Assembly (NCBI RefSeq): GCF_038002225.1
Contig: NZ_JBBOCA010000001.1
Coordinates: 6,696,001 to 6,760,000 of the forward strand
Reading direction: 5' to 3'
Length of the DNA stretch: 64,000 nucleotides
From: Paenibacillus sp. FSL R7-0204
GTDB lineage: Bacteria; Bacillota; Bacilli; Paenibacillales; Paenibacillaceae
The notes under the pieces were generated by a model. That model saw only the letters and a program-made list of their open reading frames with translations. It was not told where the DNA came from and made no database searches. The translations under genes were made by a program, and so were the position numbers. Numbering within the stretch: position 1 is the first letter of the stretch; the number at the start of each line of letters is the position of its first letter. Below, piece by piece: positions 55,451 to 63,908 of the stretch.

Positions 55451-56314
55451 TCATATATGATTGCGGCAGGTCTGCGGAGAGAGGCCCATATATTTTTTGA
55501 ATAGCCTTGAAAAATAAAAACTATCCTTATAATGAAGCATTCCCGCTATCTCCTGCACCTGCAGCGAGGTACTCAGCAGCAAATGCTTGGCCTCAGCCAT
55601 CTTCAGCCGGTGGATATATTCATGCAGGGGGTACCCGCTGCTCCGCCGCACGGTACGACGGAGTGTAGACATGGAGAGGTGCAGGTCTTCGGCTATGCGC
55701 GGCAGATCCGGCTTCTCATAGATACAGGCATTTAGCGCCTCCCGGATCAGCGGCATAGCTTCCTGCTGCCACGGGCGGCGGCTGCCCTGGAGCTGCAGCG
55801 AGCATTCCAGCAGCATCTCCTCCAGCAGCAGCGCAGCGCGGTCCGCATCACCGGGAACATCCCCAGTCATATACGCCAGAACCTCTTCAAAAGACGCTTC
55901 CAGCCCTTCCGCCTTATCCCCCCGGGTTACCTCTCCACCCGCAATCATTCCGGCTTCCAGCCATTCTGTAACACGGCTTCCGCTGAAATTAATATAGTAT
56001 TCATCCCAATACCCGCCAGGCGGCGGTCCGAAGCTATAGCTGCAGCCGGGTCTGAAAAAAAACAGGCTTCCCTCGCGGACCTGCTGCTCTGCTCCTCCGT
56101 TCTCCGTATAAGTTCCGCCTCCTGCGACTATATATACAAGGGCCCAGTGTTCAAAGGTGACCCCCGAACGAAACAGCGTTCTTCCCGGCAGATGGCCGGC
56201 TTGCCCGACACGTATCGATTTCAGACGCAGCCTGGCGGCCTCCACCTTCGGATCAATAATTCTTACTGGATACGGGCTGATCATATAATCCATGAGCTTG
56301 GGCATACACTGCAT
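55451..56314 (-). CDS. AraC-family transcriptional regulator
   Basis: 287 residues: N-terminal cupin-type sugar-binding domain (VTFEHWALVYIVAGGGTYTE, GSLFFFRPGCSYSFGP) and C-terminal AraC helix-turn-helix pair (about 190-285: IAEDLHLSMSTLRRTVRRSS and AGMLHYKDSFYFSRLFKKYM). Starts at 56314 or, with better spacing from GGAGGA, at 56305. Divergent from the GH20 gene with only about 75 bp between, so it probably regulates that gene in response to a sugar. Confidence 0.9.
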   Translation of the reverse strand: MQCMPKLMDYMISPYPVRIIDPKVEAARLRLKSIRVGQAGHLPGRTLFRSGVTFEHWALVYIVAGGGTYTENGGAEQQVREGSLFFFRPGCSYSFGPPPGGYWDEYYINFSGSRVTEWLEAGMIAGGEVTRGDKAEGLEASFEEVLAYMTGDVPGDADRAALLLEEMLLECSLQLQGSRRPWQQEAMPLIREALNACIYEKPDLPRIAEDLHLSMSTLRRTVRRSSGYPLHEYIHRLKMAEAKHLLLSTSLQVQEIAGMLHYKDSFYFSRLFKKYMGLSPQTCRNHI

Positions 56315-56389
56315 TCCTCCATGTGTTCAGGAGTGATATGTTGATAATGAAGATGATCATATTCTACATGAATAAGAGGTGTCCACGCT

Positions 56390-58321
56390 ATGTCTGATGT
56401 TGTTCACTTACAGCTTTTTCCCCGGCCGCAAAAGATCACGGTATCTGCAGGACAGTTCCACCTATCTTCCCGGGGCAGCATTGTGCTGGCCGGTGAGGGC
56501 CAGTTGTCCGCCCTTCCTGCAGCCCGCAGGCTTCAAAAGACCGCTTCCGAGGTGGTCCGTCTCAATCTGCCTCTGTCCATAGGGCAGCGGTCTGCCACAG
56601 TTCCGGGTTGTACTTTCCGCTATAACGCCCTGCTTGCAGAAGGAGCCTACGAGCTGCACATTAACGAAAAAGGTCTACTTGCCGCTTACGGTTCTCCGCA
56701 AGGCGCTTATTATGCAGCAGCAACGCTGAAGCAGCTCCTGCAGCAATGCGGCCGGACACTGCCTTATCTTCATATCTGCGATCAGCCTGATTTCGCGGCC
56801 AGAGGACTGATGCTTGATATCAGCCGCAACAAAATCCCCACGCTGGATACCCTGTACCGGATCATTGATCTCATGGCTGACCTCAAGCTGAATCAGCTGC
56901 AGCTATATATAGAAGGAGCTCCTTTTGCTTATGAGTCCTTCCCGCAGGTATGGGAGCTGGAAACTCCGCTCACCGGCGATGAAATTCTGCTGCTGGATGT
57001 CTATTGCCGCGAGCGGTACATTGAGCTGGTGCCCAATCAAAATAGCTTCGGCCATATGGAGGGATGGTTGACCCGGCCGGAGTTCAACCACCTGGCAGAG
57101 ATTCCCGCAGGCTTCATGCTCCCGGATCATATGTATGATAGCGATTTATACCCGGAAGGATTGTTCATGCATCCCGGCACCTTCCATACGGAAGACCCAG
57201 AGGTACTGCAGCTTCTGGGCACGATGTACGATGACCTCCTTCCCTACTTCAGCTCGGAGATGTTCAATGTCGGTTGCGATGAGACCTATGAACTGGGACT
57301 TGGCGCAAGTCAGGCGCTGGCGGAGTCTTCCGGCAAAGGCGAGCTATACCTCTCCTTCCTGCAGAAGATTCACGGGCTGGTCAAGCAGCGCGGCAAAACC
57401 ATGCAATTCTGGGGCGATATCATCATCCAGCATCCCGAGCTGATCCCACGGCTGCCGAAGGATATCATCGCCATGGAGTGGGGGTACAGCGCGGCGCATC
57501 CGTTTGAAGCGGATACCCGCAAATTCAAGGAAGCTGGCATCCCGTTCTATGTCTGTCCGGGAACCAGCTCCTGGAACTCGCTCACCGGGCGAACTGACAA
57601 CATGCTCGCCAATCTGCGCAGTGCTGCGGTACATGGCAAGAGAAACGGCGCCATCGGCTACCTGATTACCGACTGGGGCGATTTCGGCCATTGGCAGCAT
57701 CTGCCGGTCAGCTATGCCGGATTCGCCTACGGGGCAGCGTTAGCCTGGAATGTAGAGGGGAATCTGGAGGCGGATGTGGCGCATTATCTGAACACGGCGA
57801 TCTTCCAAGACCGCTCGGGAACCATCGGGCAATTGCTGCTTGATCTGGGCAACTACTATAAGCTGGAGTCGGGCACGGTCCGCCCTAATGATACAGAGAT
57901 GTCCATGCTGCTGCGCAGCCATCTGGAGCATGTGCAGTTGGCTGTGAAACTGCCTCTAGAGCAGCTTGACCAGCTGGAGCAATACATTCTTGACCTCGAA
58001 GCCAGGCTGGAGCAGCCGGTTCTGGAATGCAGCGATGCCGGGCTGGTCATAGAAGAGGTGCGTAGCGGTATCCACTTCGTGAAGCATGCCGTGCAGCTTA
58101 CCCGGCTCAAGCACCAGCTCGCGTCAGCCGATCCGAAGCTTGAGGCAGCGCAGGTTCAGGTGCTGATCCATGAGCTGGATCTGCTGCTGCACCAGTACCG
58201 CCAGCTATGGACCCGGCGCAACCGGCCGGGCGGCCTGGAGCGCAGTGTCTCGAAGCTGGTGCGTCTGCGCGGGGAATACACCGCACTTGCCGCCAAGCTG
58301 GACGCAGCGGCAGTTCGGTAG
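56390..58321 (+). CDS. GH20 beta-N-acetylhexosaminidase, cytoplasmic
   Basis: Removes terminal N-acetylhexosamine from oligosaccharides. 643 residues with no signal peptide, so it acts inside the cell on imported substrate. N-terminal GH20b-like domain (about 1-130, SPQGAYYAAATLKQLLQQ), TIM barrel starting at FAARGLMLDISRNKIPTLDT, catalytic Asp-Glu pair in FNVGCDETYELG (near 294-296), WGDIIIQHP and WGYSAAHPF, then a helical C-terminal domain. AAGAGGTG precedes the ATG. Divergent AraC regulator upstream, strong terminator downstream, so a single-gene unit. Confidence 0.92.
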   Translation: MSDVVHLQLFPRPQKITVSAGQFHLSSRGSIVLAGEGQLSALPAARRLQKTASEVVRLNLPLSIGQRSATVPGCTFRYNALLAEGAYELHINEKGLLAAYGSPQGAYYAAATLKQLLQQCGRTLPYLHICDQPDFAARGLMLDISRNKIPTLDTLYRIIDLMADLKLNQLQLYIEGAPFAYESFPQVWELETPLTGDEILLLDVYCRERYIELVPNQNSFGHMEGWLTRPEFNHLAEIPAGFMLPDHMYDSDLYPEGLFMHPGTFHTEDPEVLQLLGTMYDDLLPYFSSEMFNVGCDETYELGLGASQALAESSGKGELYLSFLQKIHGLVKQRGKTMQFWGDIIIQHPELIPRLPKDIIAMEWGYSAAHPFEADTRKFKEAGIPFYVCPGTSSWNSLTGRTDNMLANLRSAAVHGKRNGAIGYLITDWGDFGHWQHLPVSYAGFAYGAALAWNVEGNLEADVAHYLNTAIFQDRSGTIGQLLLDLGNYYKLESGTVRPNDTEMSMLLRSHLEHVQLAVKLPLEQLDQLEQYILDLEARLEQPVLECSDAGLVIEEVRSGIHFVKHAVQLTRLKHQLASADPKLEAAQVQVLIHELDLLLHQYRQLWTRRNRPGGLERSVSKLVRLRGEYTALAAKLDAAAVR

Positions 58322-58353
58322 ACTACATTACGGAAGAATATAATAGAACATAC

Positions 58354-58418
58354 AAAAGAAACCTCTCCTTTGAAATGGTGTGTGGATACTCCATTTCACC
58401 AAAGGGTGGTTTCTTTTT
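58354..58418 (+). terminator. Terminator of the GH20 gene
   Basis: Long stem: AAAGAAACC and CCTTTG..ATGG pair with CCAT..CAAAGG and GGTTTCTTT, followed by TTTTTG. Confidence 0.88.
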
Positions 58419-58502
58419 GTGATTTAGAAAGATTTTGAAGAATCTTTTTGCGCTTAAACAGCGGAGCGAACGGAACGACCCGCGTAAAAGCGGCAGCGTT
58501 AG

Positions 58503-58545
58503 CCCAATGTATGCTGTTTTCCGCATACATTCAGCCTTGAGGCGG
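58503..58545. repeat. 51-bp repeat family, locus D (single unit)
   Basis: CCCAATGTATGC-TGTTTTCC-GCATACATTCAG: aligned with loci A and C over the first 30 bases. The hairpin arms AATGTATGC/GCATACATT pair perfectly over 9 bp. Confidence 0.65.
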
Positions 58546-58608
58546 TGAAATCAGGTATACTCCTGCTCCACCCGGTGATCCTGCGCCGCATCAGCAATAA
58601 AGTTAGGA

Positions 58609-58637
58609 TTGAAATAGGACCATTGCAGGATTATAAT
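58609..58637 (+). promoter_or_regulatory. Strong sigma-A promoter for the isoprenoid-synthase-like gene
   Basis: TTGAAA (58609-58614), 17-bp spacer, TATAAT (58632-58637), 66 bp before the start codon. Near-consensus hexamers and ideal spacing. Confidence 0.8.
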
Positions 58638-58703
58638 ATGATCAAATAACCACTTTTTACCTAATATTTTAAATAAAATACATAATTGACAGGAGATAAG
58701 TCT

Positions 58704-59645
58704 ATGGATTGGCTTCATGCTTATGAGGACGAGCTCCGTGTGGTCTTTGAGGAGAACCGCAGGGTGATCTCTGCGTTTCCAGAGCCGCTTAACGCCCGCG
58801 GCCTGTCGTATCTCAATCAGTTCAACGTGTTCCACCCGGACAGCCACAAGAATTACATCTGTTACCTGCTGCCCTTCTGGCTCCAGGACCCTTGTGGCCT
58901 GAGTCCTGAACTGGCCCGCAGGATGTCCGCCGGCAACATCTTCCTCATGCTCTACTTCTTCCTCCAGGATGATCTGATGGATAGCCCGGAGGCCTCGGCT
59001 GCACAAGCGCTGCCGCTTGCCAATCTGCTCTATGTGGAGTTTCTGGCTACCTACCTTCCGCTGTTCCCGGCGGACTCTCCCTTCTGGCCCTGCTTCAGCC
59101 GTTACATCAGCGAGTGGGCAGACAGCGTAAGCGGTGAAGCCGGCAGCGATTACTTCCTGAATGACCGCATCCGCATCTCCCATAAGGCCAGCCCGCTTAA
59201 GCTCAGCAGTACGGCCGCGCTGCTACTCTCCGGTCAGTCCTCCTCTATTCCCGAGGCCGAAGAAATGATCCACACTGTGCTGTTGACCCTGCAGATGCTT
59301 GACGACTACGAAGATTGGGAGCAGGATCTGGAGGACAACAGCTATAACTGCCTGTTGTCACTCGTCCGCTCCAGTACCGGAATGGACGCAGGAGAACCGC
59401 TGACCGAAACAGCAGTGAAGGACTTCATATATGTAGCAGGCGGACTTACGGGATATGCAGCAACGGCCCAAGCCAACCATCTGATGCTGGAGGAGACAAG
59501 CTTACAGCTGCCCTTGCTGGTATCCTTCCATCTCGTGCTCGTGCAGAACCTGCAGCAGATCGCCGCGGCCATTGAAGCACAGAAGCAATTGCTGCTGGGC
59601 GGAGGGCTTGATTACTGGCTATCTTCGCACTCGAATCTCTCATAA
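58704..59645 (+). CDS. Class I isoprenoid-synthase-like protein
   Basis: Start at ATG 58704 after AGGAGAT; the longer frame from a TTG at 58686 is less likely. 313 residues, all-helical in appearance. Two aspartate-rich motifs, DDLMD (89-93) and DDYED (200-204), about 111 residues apart, match the paired DDxxD metal-binding motifs of trans-prenyltransferases, and FFLQDDLMDSPE resembles the first motif context. Other active-site features (a basic pyrophosphate-binding pair after the first motif) are not obvious, so a terpene-synthase-like or altered activity is possible. Followed 83 bp later by an NHLP-type peptide gene in the same direction. Confidence 0.72.
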   Translation: MDWLHAYEDELRVVFEENRRVISAFPEPLNARGLSYLNQFNVFHPDSHKNYICYLLPFWLQDPCGLSPELARRMSAGNIFLMLYFFLQDDLMDSPEASAAQALPLANLLYVEFLATYLPLFPADSPFWPCFSRYISEWADSVSGEAGSDYFLNDRIRISHKASPLKLSSTAALLLSGQSSSIPEAEEMIHTVLLTLQMLDDYEDWEQDLEDNSYNCLLSLVRSSTGMDAGEPLTETAVKDFIYVAGGLTGYAATAQANHLMLEETSLQLPLLVSFHLVLVQNLQQIAAAIEAQKQLLLGGGLDYWLSSHSNLS

Positions 59646-59681
59646 TTTATGCAAATAGCAATAGAATTATAGAATGGCCTA

Positions 59682-59690
59682 TGCTATACT
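59682..59690 (+). promoter_or_regulatory. Extended -10 promoter before the NHLP peptide gene
   Basis: TGCTATACT (TGn plus TATACT, -10 at 59685-59690), about 40 bp ahead of the start codon; no clear -35. It would allow separate expression of the peptide gene. Confidence 0.5.
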
Positions 59691-59728
59691 AAAAAGGCAA
59701 TTATAACCATTTTGAAAGGGTGATTGTA

Positions 59729-59968
59729 TTGTCAGTAGGAGTTCTTAAGAATCAGGTGATTCAGAAGGCGTGGGAAGATCCGGCTTTCAAACAAAGACTG
59801 CTTGCAGATCCGAAGGCAGCGCTCCAGGAAGCGCTGGGCATCAACCTTCCTGACAACATTACACTGAAGACCGTAGAGGAAGGCTCGAATGAATTCTACC
59901 TGGTCATTCCCCCAAGCCCTTCTTCTGATGTAATGAAGACACGTATCACCCCAATGGGGACCTGGTAG
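59729..59968 (+). CDS. NHLP-type (nitrile-hydratase-like leader) peptide precursor
   Basis: 79 residues from a TTG start (AAAGGGTGAT 4 nt upstream; the GTG at 59720 is too close to the ribosome site). The body matches the NHLP leader family related to nitrile hydratase alpha subunits: QKAWEDPAFKQRLLADPKAA, LQEALGINLPDNITLKTVEE and a terminal strand FYLVIPP. In other bacteria such leaders direct ribosomal peptides to modifying enzymes. Here the putative core after VIPP is short (SPSSDVMKTRITPMGTW), with Ser, Thr and Trp but no Cys, and there is no Gly-Gly cleavage motif. No cyclodehydratase, LanM or NHLM transporter gene lies within the window. Confidence 0.8.
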   Translation: MSVGVLKNQVIQKAWEDPAFKQRLLADPKAALQEALGINLPDNITLKTVEEGSNEFYLVIPPSPSSDVMKTRITPMGTW

Positions 59969-59986
59969 CATATTCAAGTCAACCTA

Positions 59987-61906
59987 TTATCGGGAGTCGG
60001 AATCGTCCGGCCCTTCTGCACGCGGCAGAAGGGTGATGGACTCGGTTCCGGCTCCTTTTTTGCTCATAAAACGGATTTCGCCCTCCATCGCTTCAATAAT
60101 ACGGAAGGTAACCATCAGCCCGAGCCCCGTGCCCTTCGTCTTATTGGAAGAGAAATACGGCTCGCCCAGACGGCTAAGCACAGCCGGTTCCATGCCTGCC
60201 CCGTTATCCTTAATATGAATATGCACCTTATCCCCCCGGCTGTAGGCCAGCAGATGAATCGTGCCTTCCTCCCCCAGGGATTCAATGCTGTTCTTGATGA
60301 TATTAATCATCGCCTGCTTGAACTTCGAGGAATTCCCTTTGACCCGCAGGCCTTCTTCCACCTCCAGAATCATTTTGCCCCCGTTCAAATGGCATAAAGG
60401 CAGCAGGATGCTCTGGATATGCATGAACTCTTCATTTACATAGAGCAGGGAGACCTGTTCAAATTCCGGCTTGGCAAAGGTCAGAAAATCAGTAATAATA
60501 CTCGCCGCCCGATCCAGCTCGCTTAGCGCCATGGACAGGTATTTCTGCTCATCCCCGCTCGACTTCTCACTGAGCAGCTGGAGGAACCCCCGGGTCACCT
60601 GGAGCGGGTTACGCACCTCATGGGCTACCGATGCTGCCAGCTCGCTGATAATCTCCATTTTCTCCGAACGCTGTAATTCGTTGTTGAACAGCTCCAGCTC
60701 CTGCGAATACTTCACCACTTGGCTGTGGTTCTGCGCCAGCCGCCGCCCCAGAATCACTATCAGCGAGAGAATGAACACAACCAGCGCCCATTTCCAGTAG
60801 AAGAGATCATAATTCCCGCGTCTGAAATAATACCACAGCAGCTCCAAAATCCCGGTAAGGGCAGCCGTACCGAAGCCGCATGCGAAGATGATCGCATCCT
60901 TGTTGCGCTTCAGGGAGAACACAATTACGCAGCCGATCAGCAGAATGAATTGAAGAATCATAATAATGCCGACAATGTTGGTGGAGATGAAGTAGTAGAA
61001 TTTCAGATACCGGCCCCCGGAGAGTGCATTTATAATGAGGAGGACACAGCAGAATAAGGAATAGGCCATCTGGAATTTGCGGAACCTGCGGATGATGCCG
61101 TATTTGCCCGCGCCGAATATTTTCTCAAACAGAAAGGTCAGTGCGGGTAACAGGGACAACAACGCCACATCGAACAAAAATACACTGAGCCCGCCCAAAT
61201 AGCTATAGAAGGTATACGTGAAGGAAGAGTAGGTTACAGATAACACACCGGTAGAGGCAATGACAATGGACAGCGAAGCTGCTACGGGGAAATACTCCTT
61301 GTTCAGGAAAAATGCGCATACAAACAGCACCGCCGCCACGAAGATAAAAGCGCCGCCCAGAATCACATCTATAAGTCCGTTTTTGATATAGTCCTTGATT
61401 AGAAGACTGTGCTCACCGAGCATCACCTGCTCTTTGATTCCGATCCGGTCCTGGAGCGTCTGCGTCCAGATATAGAGCGTCTTTCCGTTATCCCGCATAT
61501 CCAGAGGCACAAGCAAGGAATAATTATCCATAATGAAGCCGCGGTCTCCTTCAAAAACCAGCCGGTCCTCCACATACACCTTCACATGCAGCGCATAAAT
61601 CGTCTGAATATAGACGGAGGGGGACACGTAATGATAGGAGGGCAAAGTAATCTTGGTCCAGGCGGAGGATACCCCGGTAGGCTTGCGCGGCATCTCCGCC
61701 TTCGCCTCCACATCGATCCACCCCTGGTCATCCTTTACAGGAGCCTGGAGTCCGCCATCATCCGGCCCCTCCTGCCACTTCATCTGCCAATGTCTGATCT
61801 CACTGGCGGGGGAGGGGCTTTGCGCGGACACCAGGAGACTTCCGCAGGCTAGGCAAAGCAGAAACAATACTAACGCTGTATGTAAACTTTTGACCATCAA
61901 AGACAT
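59987..61906 (-). CDS. 7TM sensor histidine kinase, paralogue 1
   Basis: 639 residues: signal peptide (about 1-28), an external beta-rich domain (about 30-165, like 7TMR-DISM extracellular parts; WTKITLPSYHYVSPSVYIQ), seven membrane helices (about 175-400), HisKA with SVAHEVRNPLQVTRGFLQLL (His near 427) and HATPase_c (INIIKNSIESLGEEG, IKDNGAGM, KTKGTGLGLMVTFRIIEAM). The kinase core resembles sporulation-kinase-type HPK families. Convergent with the NHLP peptide gene (18 bp between ends), and paralogous to the next kinase. No response regulator is adjacent. Confidence 0.93.
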   Translation of the reverse strand: MSLMVKSLHTALVLFLLCLACGSLLVSAQSPSPASEIRHWQMKWQEGPDDGGLQAPVKDDQGWIDVEAKAEMPRKPTGVSSAWTKITLPSYHYVSPSVYIQTIYALHVKVYVEDRLVFEGDRGFIMDNYSLLVPLDMRDNGKTLYIWTQTLQDRIGIKEQVMLGEHSLLIKDYIKNGLIDVILGGAFIFVAAVLFVCAFFLNKEYFPVAASLSIVIASTGVLSVTYSSFTYTFYSYLGGLSVFLFDVALLSLLPALTFLFEKIFGAGKYGIIRRFRKFQMAYSLFCCVLLIINALSGGRYLKFYYFISTNIVGIIMILQFILLIGCVIVFSLKRNKDAIIFACGFGTAALTGILELLWYYFRRGNYDLFYWKWALVVFILSLIVILGRRLAQNHSQVVKYSQELELFNNELQRSEKMEIISELAASVAHEVRNPLQVTRGFLQLLSEKSSGDEQKYLSMALSELDRAASIITDFLTFAKPEFEQVSLLYVNEEFMHIQSILLPLCHLNGGKMILEVEEGLRVKGNSSKFKQAMINIIKNSIESLGEEGTIHLLAYSRGDKVHIHIKDNGAGMEPAVLSRLGEPYFSSNKTKGTGLGLMVTFRIIEAMEGEIRFMSKKGAGTESITLLPRAEGPDDSDSR

Positions 61907-62012
61907 GCAAGCACCTCAGAGGAAAGTTTTAGAAGCAAAGTTCTGTAGTGTTAATATTTCGCCCCTTGCTCTGCCCATCCCTTCAAAAAAACGGAATAAA
62001 CAAAAAAAATTT

Positions 62013-63908
62013 CTAATTCATACTGGAGGCCGGCAATTTAATAAGCACCTCAGTTCCTTCGCCCTTGCGGCTGTGGAACTCAATCGTGCCGTTCATCGCT
62101 TCAATAATACGGAAGGTGACCATGAGGCCGAGCCCCGTCCCCTTGGTCTTATTCGAGTAATACGGCTCGCCCAGACGGGCCAGTTCGCTAACCTTCATTC
62201 CCACGCCGTTATCCTTCACGCTGATGATTACCCAGTTGCCTGTCCTCCAGGCTGTTACGACAATCTCCCCCTCCTCCTGCAGTGATTCAATGCTGTTCTT
62301 GATCAGATTAATGAAGGCCTGCTTGAATTTGGCCGGGCTGCCCGTCACTTGAAGCTCCTGCTGCAGACGCAGCTCTATCGAACCGCCCTGCAGATTAGCC
62401 AGCGGCAGCAGGATTCCCGACACATGCTTCAGCTCCCCCGAGACTTCGAATACATCCACGATATCCACGCCCGGCTTCGCAAAGGTAAGGAAATCGGTAA
62501 TGATCACCGAGGCCCGGTCCAGCTCTCCCACAGCCATCTTCAGATACTCCTTCTCCTTGTTGCCGGAGCGCTCCCCCAGAATCTGCAGGAACCCGCGTGT
62601 GACCTGGAGCGGATTACGCACCTCATGGGCTACCGAGGCGGCCAGCTCACTGATAATCTCCATTTTCTCCGAACGCTGCAGCTCATTATTGAACTTCTCC
62701 AGCTCCCTGGCGTATTCCAGCGCCTTCTCATGGCTTCCCGCAAACCGTTTCCCCAGAATAGCAATCAGGGAAAGAATGAATACCACCATGCCCCATTTCC
62801 ACCAGTACAGATGATACCTCTCCATTGAAATGAAGTAACGCAGCAGCTCCGCTACGGAGACCAAGGCAAATACTGAGAAGCCGCCAGTGAACAGAATGGC
62901 ATCTGAATTGCCCCTGCGGGCATAAGAAAACGCCAAGAACAGCAGGTAGATAAGCTGGGCCATCATTAGTACACCGGTTGCGTTAATAGTCAGAATAGAA
63001 TACAGCGCATCCAGCCGGAAGGACACCGCGGCATTCAGAATAAGCGCTGCGGTACAGAACAGAGAATAGGCCAGCTGAAATTTACGCACCCGGGTAGTGA
63101 ATCCCCGCTTGCCCGGTCCGAATAGCTGCTCAAAATAAAGCGTGAACGCCGGCATAATGGTGAACAGGGCCAAATCGAAGCTGATCTGCCTCAGACGATC
63201 CCCCCGACTTAGAATCAGGGTCAGAAACGGGGAGTACGTCAGCAGCAGCACTCCAAAGGACAGGATGACAAGGGCCAGAAAGAAACCGCTGTAGAAAAAT
63301 TCGGGCTTAAGGAACAGCAGGCAGATCAATAACGCTCCGGCCATGAAGATCATGGCGGCTCCGAGTACAACGTCCACCAGATCCTGCTTCACATAAAAGG
63401 ACAGCAGCTGATTATAGCTGCCAACCCTTATGTCCCCCTCGATTCCAAACTCCCCGCTGCCTGCATTCCACAGATAGAGCGGCTTTGCACTGTCTTGTGC
63501 CGGGAGCGGAATCAGCACCTTGTTGCCGCTATATTCCACATCCCCGCTGGAATCGTAGATTAGCCGGTTGTCTATATATGCTTTCAGGTTGTCGCCAAAT
63601 ACTCTATCGATCAGAATAGCGGGAGCTGCTCCCGCAGGGGGCAAGGTAATCCGCATCCAGGCGGAAGCGGTACCAGGTGGCGAAAGGGGTCTGGCCTCCC
63701 TGGCCCGTACCCATGTCCATCCGGCGGCTGGCCCTGCCATTACAGCTTCTATGCCGCTATTCCCGGCCGTTTCCCACTTCAGCTCCCAGGCCGGAATTTC
63801 CGCTTCGGTATGTGTATCCCATTCTATGGCGATCCCCGCCGGAATGATGGTTATTACAAGCAGCAGCATAATAAAGACTGCGGCTGTTTTGGTTGATGCT
63901 AACTTCAT
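62013..63908 (-). CDS. 7TM sensor histidine kinase, paralogue 2
   Basis: 631 residues with the same order as its neighbour: signal peptide, external domain, seven membrane helices (about 170-395), SVAHEVRNPLQVTRGFLQIL (His near 426), HATPase_c with INLIKNSIESLQEEG and KTKGTGLGLMVTFRIIEAM. The catalytic halves of the two proteins are nearly identical while the external domains differ, suggesting a tandem duplication with divergent sensing. Both genes begin after GAGGTGC, and 106 bp separate them. Confidence 0.93.
   Translation of the reverse strand: MKLASTKTAAVFIMLLLVITIIPAGIAIEWDTHTEAEIPAWELKWETAGNSGIEAVMAGPAAGWTWVRAREARPLSPPGTASAWMRITLPPAGAAPAILIDRVFGDNLKAYIDNRLIYDSSGDVEYSGNKVLIPLPAQDSAKPLYLWNAGSGEFGIEGDIRVGSYNQLLSFYVKQDLVDVVLGAAMIFMAGALLICLLFLKPEFFYSGFFLALVILSFGVLLLTYSPFLTLILSRGDRLRQISFDLALFTIMPAFTLYFEQLFGPGKRGFTTRVRKFQLAYSLFCTAALILNAAVSFRLDALYSILTINATGVLMMAQLIYLLFLAFSYARRGNSDAILFTGGFSVFALVSVAELLRYFISMERYHLYWWKWGMVVFILSLIAILGKRFAGSHEKALEYARELEKFNNELQRSEKMEIISELAASVAHEVRNPLQVTRGFLQILGERSGNKEKEYLKMAVGELDRASVIITDFLTFAKPGVDIVDVFEVSGELKHVSGILLPLANLQGGSIELRLQQELQVTGSPAKFKQAFINLIKNSIESLQEEGEIVVTAWRTGNWVIISVKDNGVGMKVSELARLGEPYYSNKTKGTGLGLMVTFRIIEAMNGTIEFHSRKGEGTEVLIKLPASSMN

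Follow-up and report, generated by a model that had tools for sequence, protein, structure and literature searches.

A PalQXP-type locus in Paenibacillus, with a predicted tryptophan prenyltransferase, an NHLP-leader peptide and two KinB-like sensor kinases

Genes of the locus and their known counterparts

The window studied here, i.e., the whole stretch of 64,000 nucleotides, belongs to the 7.7-Mb genome of Paenibacillus sp. FSL R7-0204. The gene palQ (58704..59645, + strand) encodes a protein of 313 aa that, judging from its sequence, is a homologue of peptide tryptophan (Trp) prenyltransferases. PalQ carries two aspartate-rich motifs, DDLMD at residues 89-93 (58968..58982, +) and DDYED at residues 200-204 (59301..59315, +), and its predicted fold is that of an isoprenoid synthase, so that fold and both motifs are as in prenyl diphosphate synthases. 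A PDB sequence search with PalQ returned nothing at E ≤ 1, and the nearest named palQ that we found, from Paenibacillus silagei, is 96% identical. Following palQ after a gap of 83 bases, palX (59729..59968, +) encodes a precursor of 79 aa, most likely started by TTG, which matches the NHLP leader model TIGR03793 at 67.5 bits (cut-off 50.9). Its core ends in TRITPMGTW, with the codon of the C-terminal Trp at 59963-59965 (+). An earlier, sequence-only reading of this DNA had picked out the paired aspartate motifs, the NHLP leader peptide downstream in the same direction and the terminal Trp, all of which are present, and the isoprenoid-synthase fold on which it hinged is confirmed by the predicted structure. 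The near-consensus promoter that it placed ahead of palQ does exist as a site with 11 of 12 consensus matches (58609..58637, +; TTGAAA-17-TATAAT), but sites of this type are no more common than in shuffled sequence.

On the opposite strand lie palP1 (59987..61906, −), coding for a membrane histidine kinase of 639 aa with HisKA and HATPase_c domains, and its paralogue palP2 (62013..63908, −), whose product of 631 aa is 48% identical to PalP1 and combines HisKA and HATPase_c with a sub-threshold match to 7TMR-DISM_7TM. The genes palX and palP1 are convergent, their stops 18 bases apart. A GH20 glycosidase gene and an AraC-type regulator gene are found 5' of palQ, and their products together with PalQ, PalX and the two kinases make up the six proteins that we scanned at 55451-63908. 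Whereas a classical NHLP RiPP cluster has a cyclodehydratase, LanM or NHLM exporter by its precursor, none of these occurred among the six proteins, which bears out the earlier remark that the usual NHLP partners are missing; an immunity or export gene was likewise absent from the six genes. We rejected a phage origin, since PHROGs gave nothing at E ≤ 0.01 for PalQ and PalX, and a defence origin, since PADLOC gave nothing at E ≤ 1e-5 for PalQ, PalX, PalP1 and PalP2.

The palQ-palX pairing and its chemistry have been known since 2023 from P. alvei (Miyata, Ito and Fujinami 2023, PMC10853753). As described there, PalQ attaches a prenyl group in vitro to the C-terminal Trp of PalX, at C3, and accepts donors of C5, C10 or C15; the reaction is aided by the NHLP domain of PalX but can proceed without it, alanines appended after the Trp abolish activity, and Q197 is proposed to bind the indole NH. 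A 2026 review (PMC13290415) classes PalQ among the trans-IDS-like peptide prenyltransferases and states that glycine flanks permit low activity on an internal Trp. The residues D89, D93, Q197, D200 and D204 have the same numbering in P. alvei PalQ and here, and all 70 PalQ rows of our family-wide set share D89, D93, Q197, D200, D201, D204 and D208, while 61 of them have D at position 90. An NHLP precursor, a C-terminal Trp and a histidine kinase are also common to both loci. By this analogy, PalQ in the window is a known kind of enzyme, expected to prenylate the last Trp of a small peptide. The loci differ in that one kinase is described for P. alvei whereas the window has two paralogous kinases, and in the cores, DNVRRFFW versus TRITPMGTW (PMC10853753). 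The nearest named P. alvei-like PalQ sequences that we found come from P. profundus and P. apiarius and show 45% identity, the likeness to P. alvei itself being judged from its description. With these PalQ residues, an NHLP precursor ending in Trp and a histidine kinase, the locus appears to be of the PalQXP type, i.e., one for a Trp-prenylated NHLP RiPP.

The arrangement also resembles ComQXPA of Bacillus subtilis as it is described (PMC4008528), which has an isoprenoid-synthase-type Trp prenyltransferase, a small precursor with a Trp near its C-terminal end and an adjoining membrane histidine kinase. In contrast to ComQXPA, where ComX belongs to PF05952, ComP is a PF07730-type kinase encoded collinearly, the regulator ComA adjoins and the Trp is only near the precursor end, the window has an NHLP precursor with Trp at the very end and HisKA kinases that are convergent on the opposite strand, with no listed regulator gene beside them. 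PalQ had no match to PF00348 (polyprenyl synthetase) at E ≤ 1, and 2 of 22 relatives matched at E ≤ 0.1 (best 0.021); PF05952 was not among the Pfam matches of PalX at E ≤ 1; and the window kinases matched PF00512 and PF02518 while PF07730 was not found in them. Membership in ComQXPA is ruled out by four features: PF00348, PF05952, PF07730, and an adjoining regulator on the same strand.

Distribution of palQ and palX and the position of tryptophan

We found palQ and palX together in 79 of 100 genomes of the genus, while palQ is absent from all other 21. PalX matches of 6.5e-21 or better fall in the same 79 genomes, and one of the 21 others (G090) matches at 6e-5. Within the genus locus set, which comprises the window and 78 fetched loci, palX lies directly 3' of palQ in 78 of 79; in the exception (G009) palQ is cut off by a contig end, and palX is found next to a piece of palQ on a different contig. 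The sequence-only reading had staked its pairing on such joint occurrence and order, and these results uphold it; on their strength we rejected the idea that a terpene synthase gene adjoins an NHLP peptide gene by accident. All 78 genus PalX end in Trp, their last eight residues taking 38 forms, and the core is more variable than the leader (mean pairwise distance 0.47 versus 0.18 across 51 loci). Away from the palQX locus of one genome (G075, contig C1, about 3094338-3095211), three weaker NHLP peptides occur in tandem and probably belong to another RiPP cluster.

At higher ranks, palQ is present in 326 of 394 family genomes (15 of 19 genera) and, by profile search, in 272 of 392 order genomes (23 of 49 genera). 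Outside the genus, the check for palX and the kinases covered 60 selected loci (59 genomes, 14 further genera of the family), leaving out PalX-profile matches weaker than 1e-10 (e.g., a second match at 2e-05 in L136). In 59 of these 60 loci palX is 3' of palQ, in three of them 2-4 kb away, and 58 have at least one full kinase nearby; L139 has palX and lacks a kinase in the fetched 6 kb. Several loci depart from the common layout. In L130, L177 and L178, palQ and palX are 2-4 kb apart with a kinase gene in between; palX is present five times in L155 (genome G296) and twice each in L127 and L131; and palQ of L170 (genome G312) has neither a PalX match nor a family kinase in the 6 kb fetched on each side.

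The last Trp is terminal in 34 of the 65 PalX copies from these 60 loci (five copies coming from one locus); in the others it lies short of the end by one residue (18 copies), two (8), three (1), four (3) or six (1). A distance of two residues is seen in L140, L143, L148, L152, L157 and L158, among others, three in L154, four in L137, L145 and L150, and six in L134. Terminal versus internal Trp needs six changes on the PalQ tree, at least four of which are forced by well-supported branches. Given the strict C-terminal rule of P. alvei PalQ, relatives with an internal Trp should either have another positional selectivity or act on a precursor trimmed before prenylation. Enzymes with other positional selectivity would be useful for peptide lipidation.

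The adjoining kinases

In the PalP1 model (mean pLDDT 77.4, pTM 0.55), an N-terminal helix is followed by a predicted beta domain at about residues 35-165, membrane helices up to about 395 and the kinase. The best PDB sequence match of the kinase core is KinB, a sporulation histidine kinase of Geobacillus (3D36, E = 4.7e-51), the next being ZraS (1.5e-27). A structure search with the PalP1 model placed ZraS first and KinB next among the best 50 of 935 matches, and these 50 align the kinase part and are uninformative for the outer domain. The cores of PalP1 and PalP2 are 43-46% identical to KinB and share with it the phospho-acceptor motif HE(V/I)RNPL; no listed regulator gene lies beside palP1 or palP2, a likeness that is provisional, while the beta domain predicted before the PalP1 membrane helices is a difference. 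We compared 22 kinases of this genome with the KinB core, namely PalP1, PalP2, the nine others among 78 kinases on contig C1 that are orphans, in that the list shows no regulator within 4.5 kb of them, and 11 kinases paired with a listed regulator. PalP2 and PalP1 rank first and second, at 193 and 182 bits, followed by four other orphans at 168, 150, 142 and 122 bits; the remaining five orphans score 46-70 bits and the 11 paired kinases at most 89. The nearest listed regulator is 7.7 kb from palP1, and none is listed within 7.6 kb of the two kinases, whose orphan status is provisional with 150 of 178 regulator candidates scored. The sporulation phosphorelay is reported to be well conserved in Paenibacillus (PMC12826061). 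KinB-like cores and provisional orphan status together point to this phosphorelay as the output of PalP1 and PalP2, which we put forward tentatively from their sequences, as KinB likeness alone does not establish phosphotransfer.

Counting kinases above 440 aa and leaving out shorter ORFs, 73 of the 79 genus loci have two, five have one and one, at a contig end, has none; a family kinase is within reach in 78 of 79. The PalP1 sensor part finds 99 of 100 genus genomes, and among the 21 that lack palQ it matches one copy in 19, two in G052 and none in G036. For 16 of them we examined the region around the kinase gene (L215-L230; G007, G025, G051 and G090 were left out, and G036 has no match). 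No ORF near these kinases matches the palQ or palX profile at E ≤ 1. Several short ORFs near the lone kinases encode a Trp within eight residues of their C-terminal end, and were rejected as none matches either profile at that threshold. The genes flanking the lone kinases resemble those of palQ-bearing loci, so palQX was probably lost in the examined genomes.

A kinase tree built by a quick method from 108 rows, in which P1 and P2 rows outside 22 hand-picked loci were left out, places eight lone kinases in the PalP2 group and groups seven with kinases that other species carry upstream of palQ; G052 retains one of each of two downstream types. In 15 of the 16 examined genomes, the palX-side kinase lineage is gone alongside palQX and a paralogue is retained. 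Four genus genomes have palQX without the palX-side lineage: L108, L109 and L111 have an upstream kinase only, and L124 has a single kinase, of the second downstream type. These four argue against a strict tie between palQX and the kinase, and kinases of the PalP family that persist without palQX must be able to do something else.

Covariation was examined in 51 loci, 28 of the 79 having been dropped for lacking both kinases or for a PalQ less than 55% identical to that of the window, and was expressed as partial r with permutations, with PalQ and the cores of both kinases as controls. The PalX core covaries with the PalP1 membrane part (r = 0.35, 0 of 999 permutations as high), and less with the PalP2 membrane part (0.21), with the outer domains (0.22 for PalP2, 0.13 for PalP1) and with the kinase cores (0.21 for PalP2, 0.05 for PalP1); the leader gives 0.00. 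With 24 near copies dropped, the 27 non-redundant loci give 0.20 for the PalP1 membrane part (96 of 2999 permutations), 0.28 for the PalP2 membrane part (6 of 2999), 0.20 for the PalP2 outer domain (146 of 2999), 0.09 for the PalP1 outer domain, 0.17 and −0.01 for the PalP2 and PalP1 kinase cores, and −0.06 for the leader. The covariation of the core with the membrane parts is weak; it runs the way one would predict if receptors had changed along with their ligand, and PalP1 does not stand out. We also considered whether palX and palP1 had been exchanged together as a cassette. Most of palQ and palP2 in the window is nearer to L055, and 59854-60453 (palX 3' end and palP1 end) and 60754-61653 (palP1 membrane and outer part) are nearer to L058/L059. 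The differences amount to 1-5 points, hence the pattern is suggestive only, and we did not adopt this explanation.

A candidate prenylated-peptide signal

The adjoining paralogous kinases, which the sequence-only reading overlooked, are the best clue to function. That reading proposed a peptide prenylated on Trp that might be a signal, which agrees with both these kinases and the P. alvei homologue, although the pairing is not unprecedented, having been published in 2023 (PMC10853753). With two membrane sensor kinases next to it, the finished peptide is suggested to be a cell-to-cell signal, and we consider it rather likely, by analogy, to be a ComX-like prenylated pheromone; that the locus is a PalQXP-type module working as ComQ-ComX-ComP does is, in our estimate, an even proposition. 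PalQ would very probably recognise PalX, aided by the NHLP leader, and prenylate C3 of its C-terminal Trp, which would then close into a pyrroloindole as shown for the P. alvei homologue. A protease would strip the leader, and a short Trp-prenylated peptide ending in TRITPMGTW would leave the cell. The neighbouring kinase PalP1 would, with somewhat better than even probability, sense this peptide, PalP2 being an old paralogue with its own role or a second input. The KinB resemblance and the apparent lack of an adjacent regulator gene lead us to suggest, with less confidence, that the kinases might finally pass phosphate to Spo0F-Spo0B-Spo0A, so that sporulation would respond to population density or to kin. 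Within the openly licensed literature, most subscription papers being outside its scope, we found no study testing what PalX signals or PalP senses.

Many RiPPs are antibiotics, and PalQ might prenylate PalX into a membrane-active or antimicrobial peptide whose production the kinases regulate or whose effect they sense. Prenylation by PalQ did make engineered antimicrobial peptides, which are not native products, more active (PMC13290415), but this reading seems unlikely given that the six genes scanned at 55451-63908 include no immunity or export gene, that PADLOC gave no match, and that a kinase adjoining palX in nearly all loci would be more typical of a signal. It is equally improbable, in our view, that the prenylated peptide acts without the kinases, e.g., in the producer membrane, and that these sense something else and are tied to palQX by old linkage. 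Such independence would account for the family kinases kept in 20 palQ-less genomes (one copy in 19, two in one), for the 16 such kinase loci without palQ or palX nearby, for the four genomes with palQX and no palX-side lineage, and for kinases convergent with palX and outside its operon; against it stand the co-loss of the palX-side kinase with palQX in 15 of 16 genomes, a neighbourhood conserved across 14 further genera and the weak covariation of kinase membrane parts with the core. An ordinary prenyl diphosphate or terpene synthase placed by chance beside an NHLP peptide would have the same fold and aspartate motifs as PalQ, but the gene order and co-occurrence with palX, the invariant Q197 (70 of 70) and the biochemistry of the P. 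alvei homologue (PMC10853753) make it highly improbable.

Here, we report as new that 1) both kinases lack a listed nearby regulator and have the most KinB-like cores of the 22 sampled, 2) the palX-side kinase is lost together with palQX in 15 of 16 genomes, four genomes running counter, 3) the core covaries weakly with the kinase membrane parts while the leader does not, and 4) the Trp often lies 1-6 residues from the end in other genera. We tentatively propose, at a little less than even confidence, that PalQXP serves quorum or kin sensing widely across the Paenibacillus family, and probably the order, and that in it a Trp-prenylated NHLP pheromone acts through KinB-like kinases on the sporulation phosphorelay. 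Such a system would be a counterpart of ComQXPA, either independent or strongly diverged; its pherotypes would be specific to lineages, and its Trp would have moved several times between the terminal and an internal position. If so, a large group of spore-formers would have a widespread prenylated-peptide signal, and spore formation in these bacteria would listen to a lipidated peptide.
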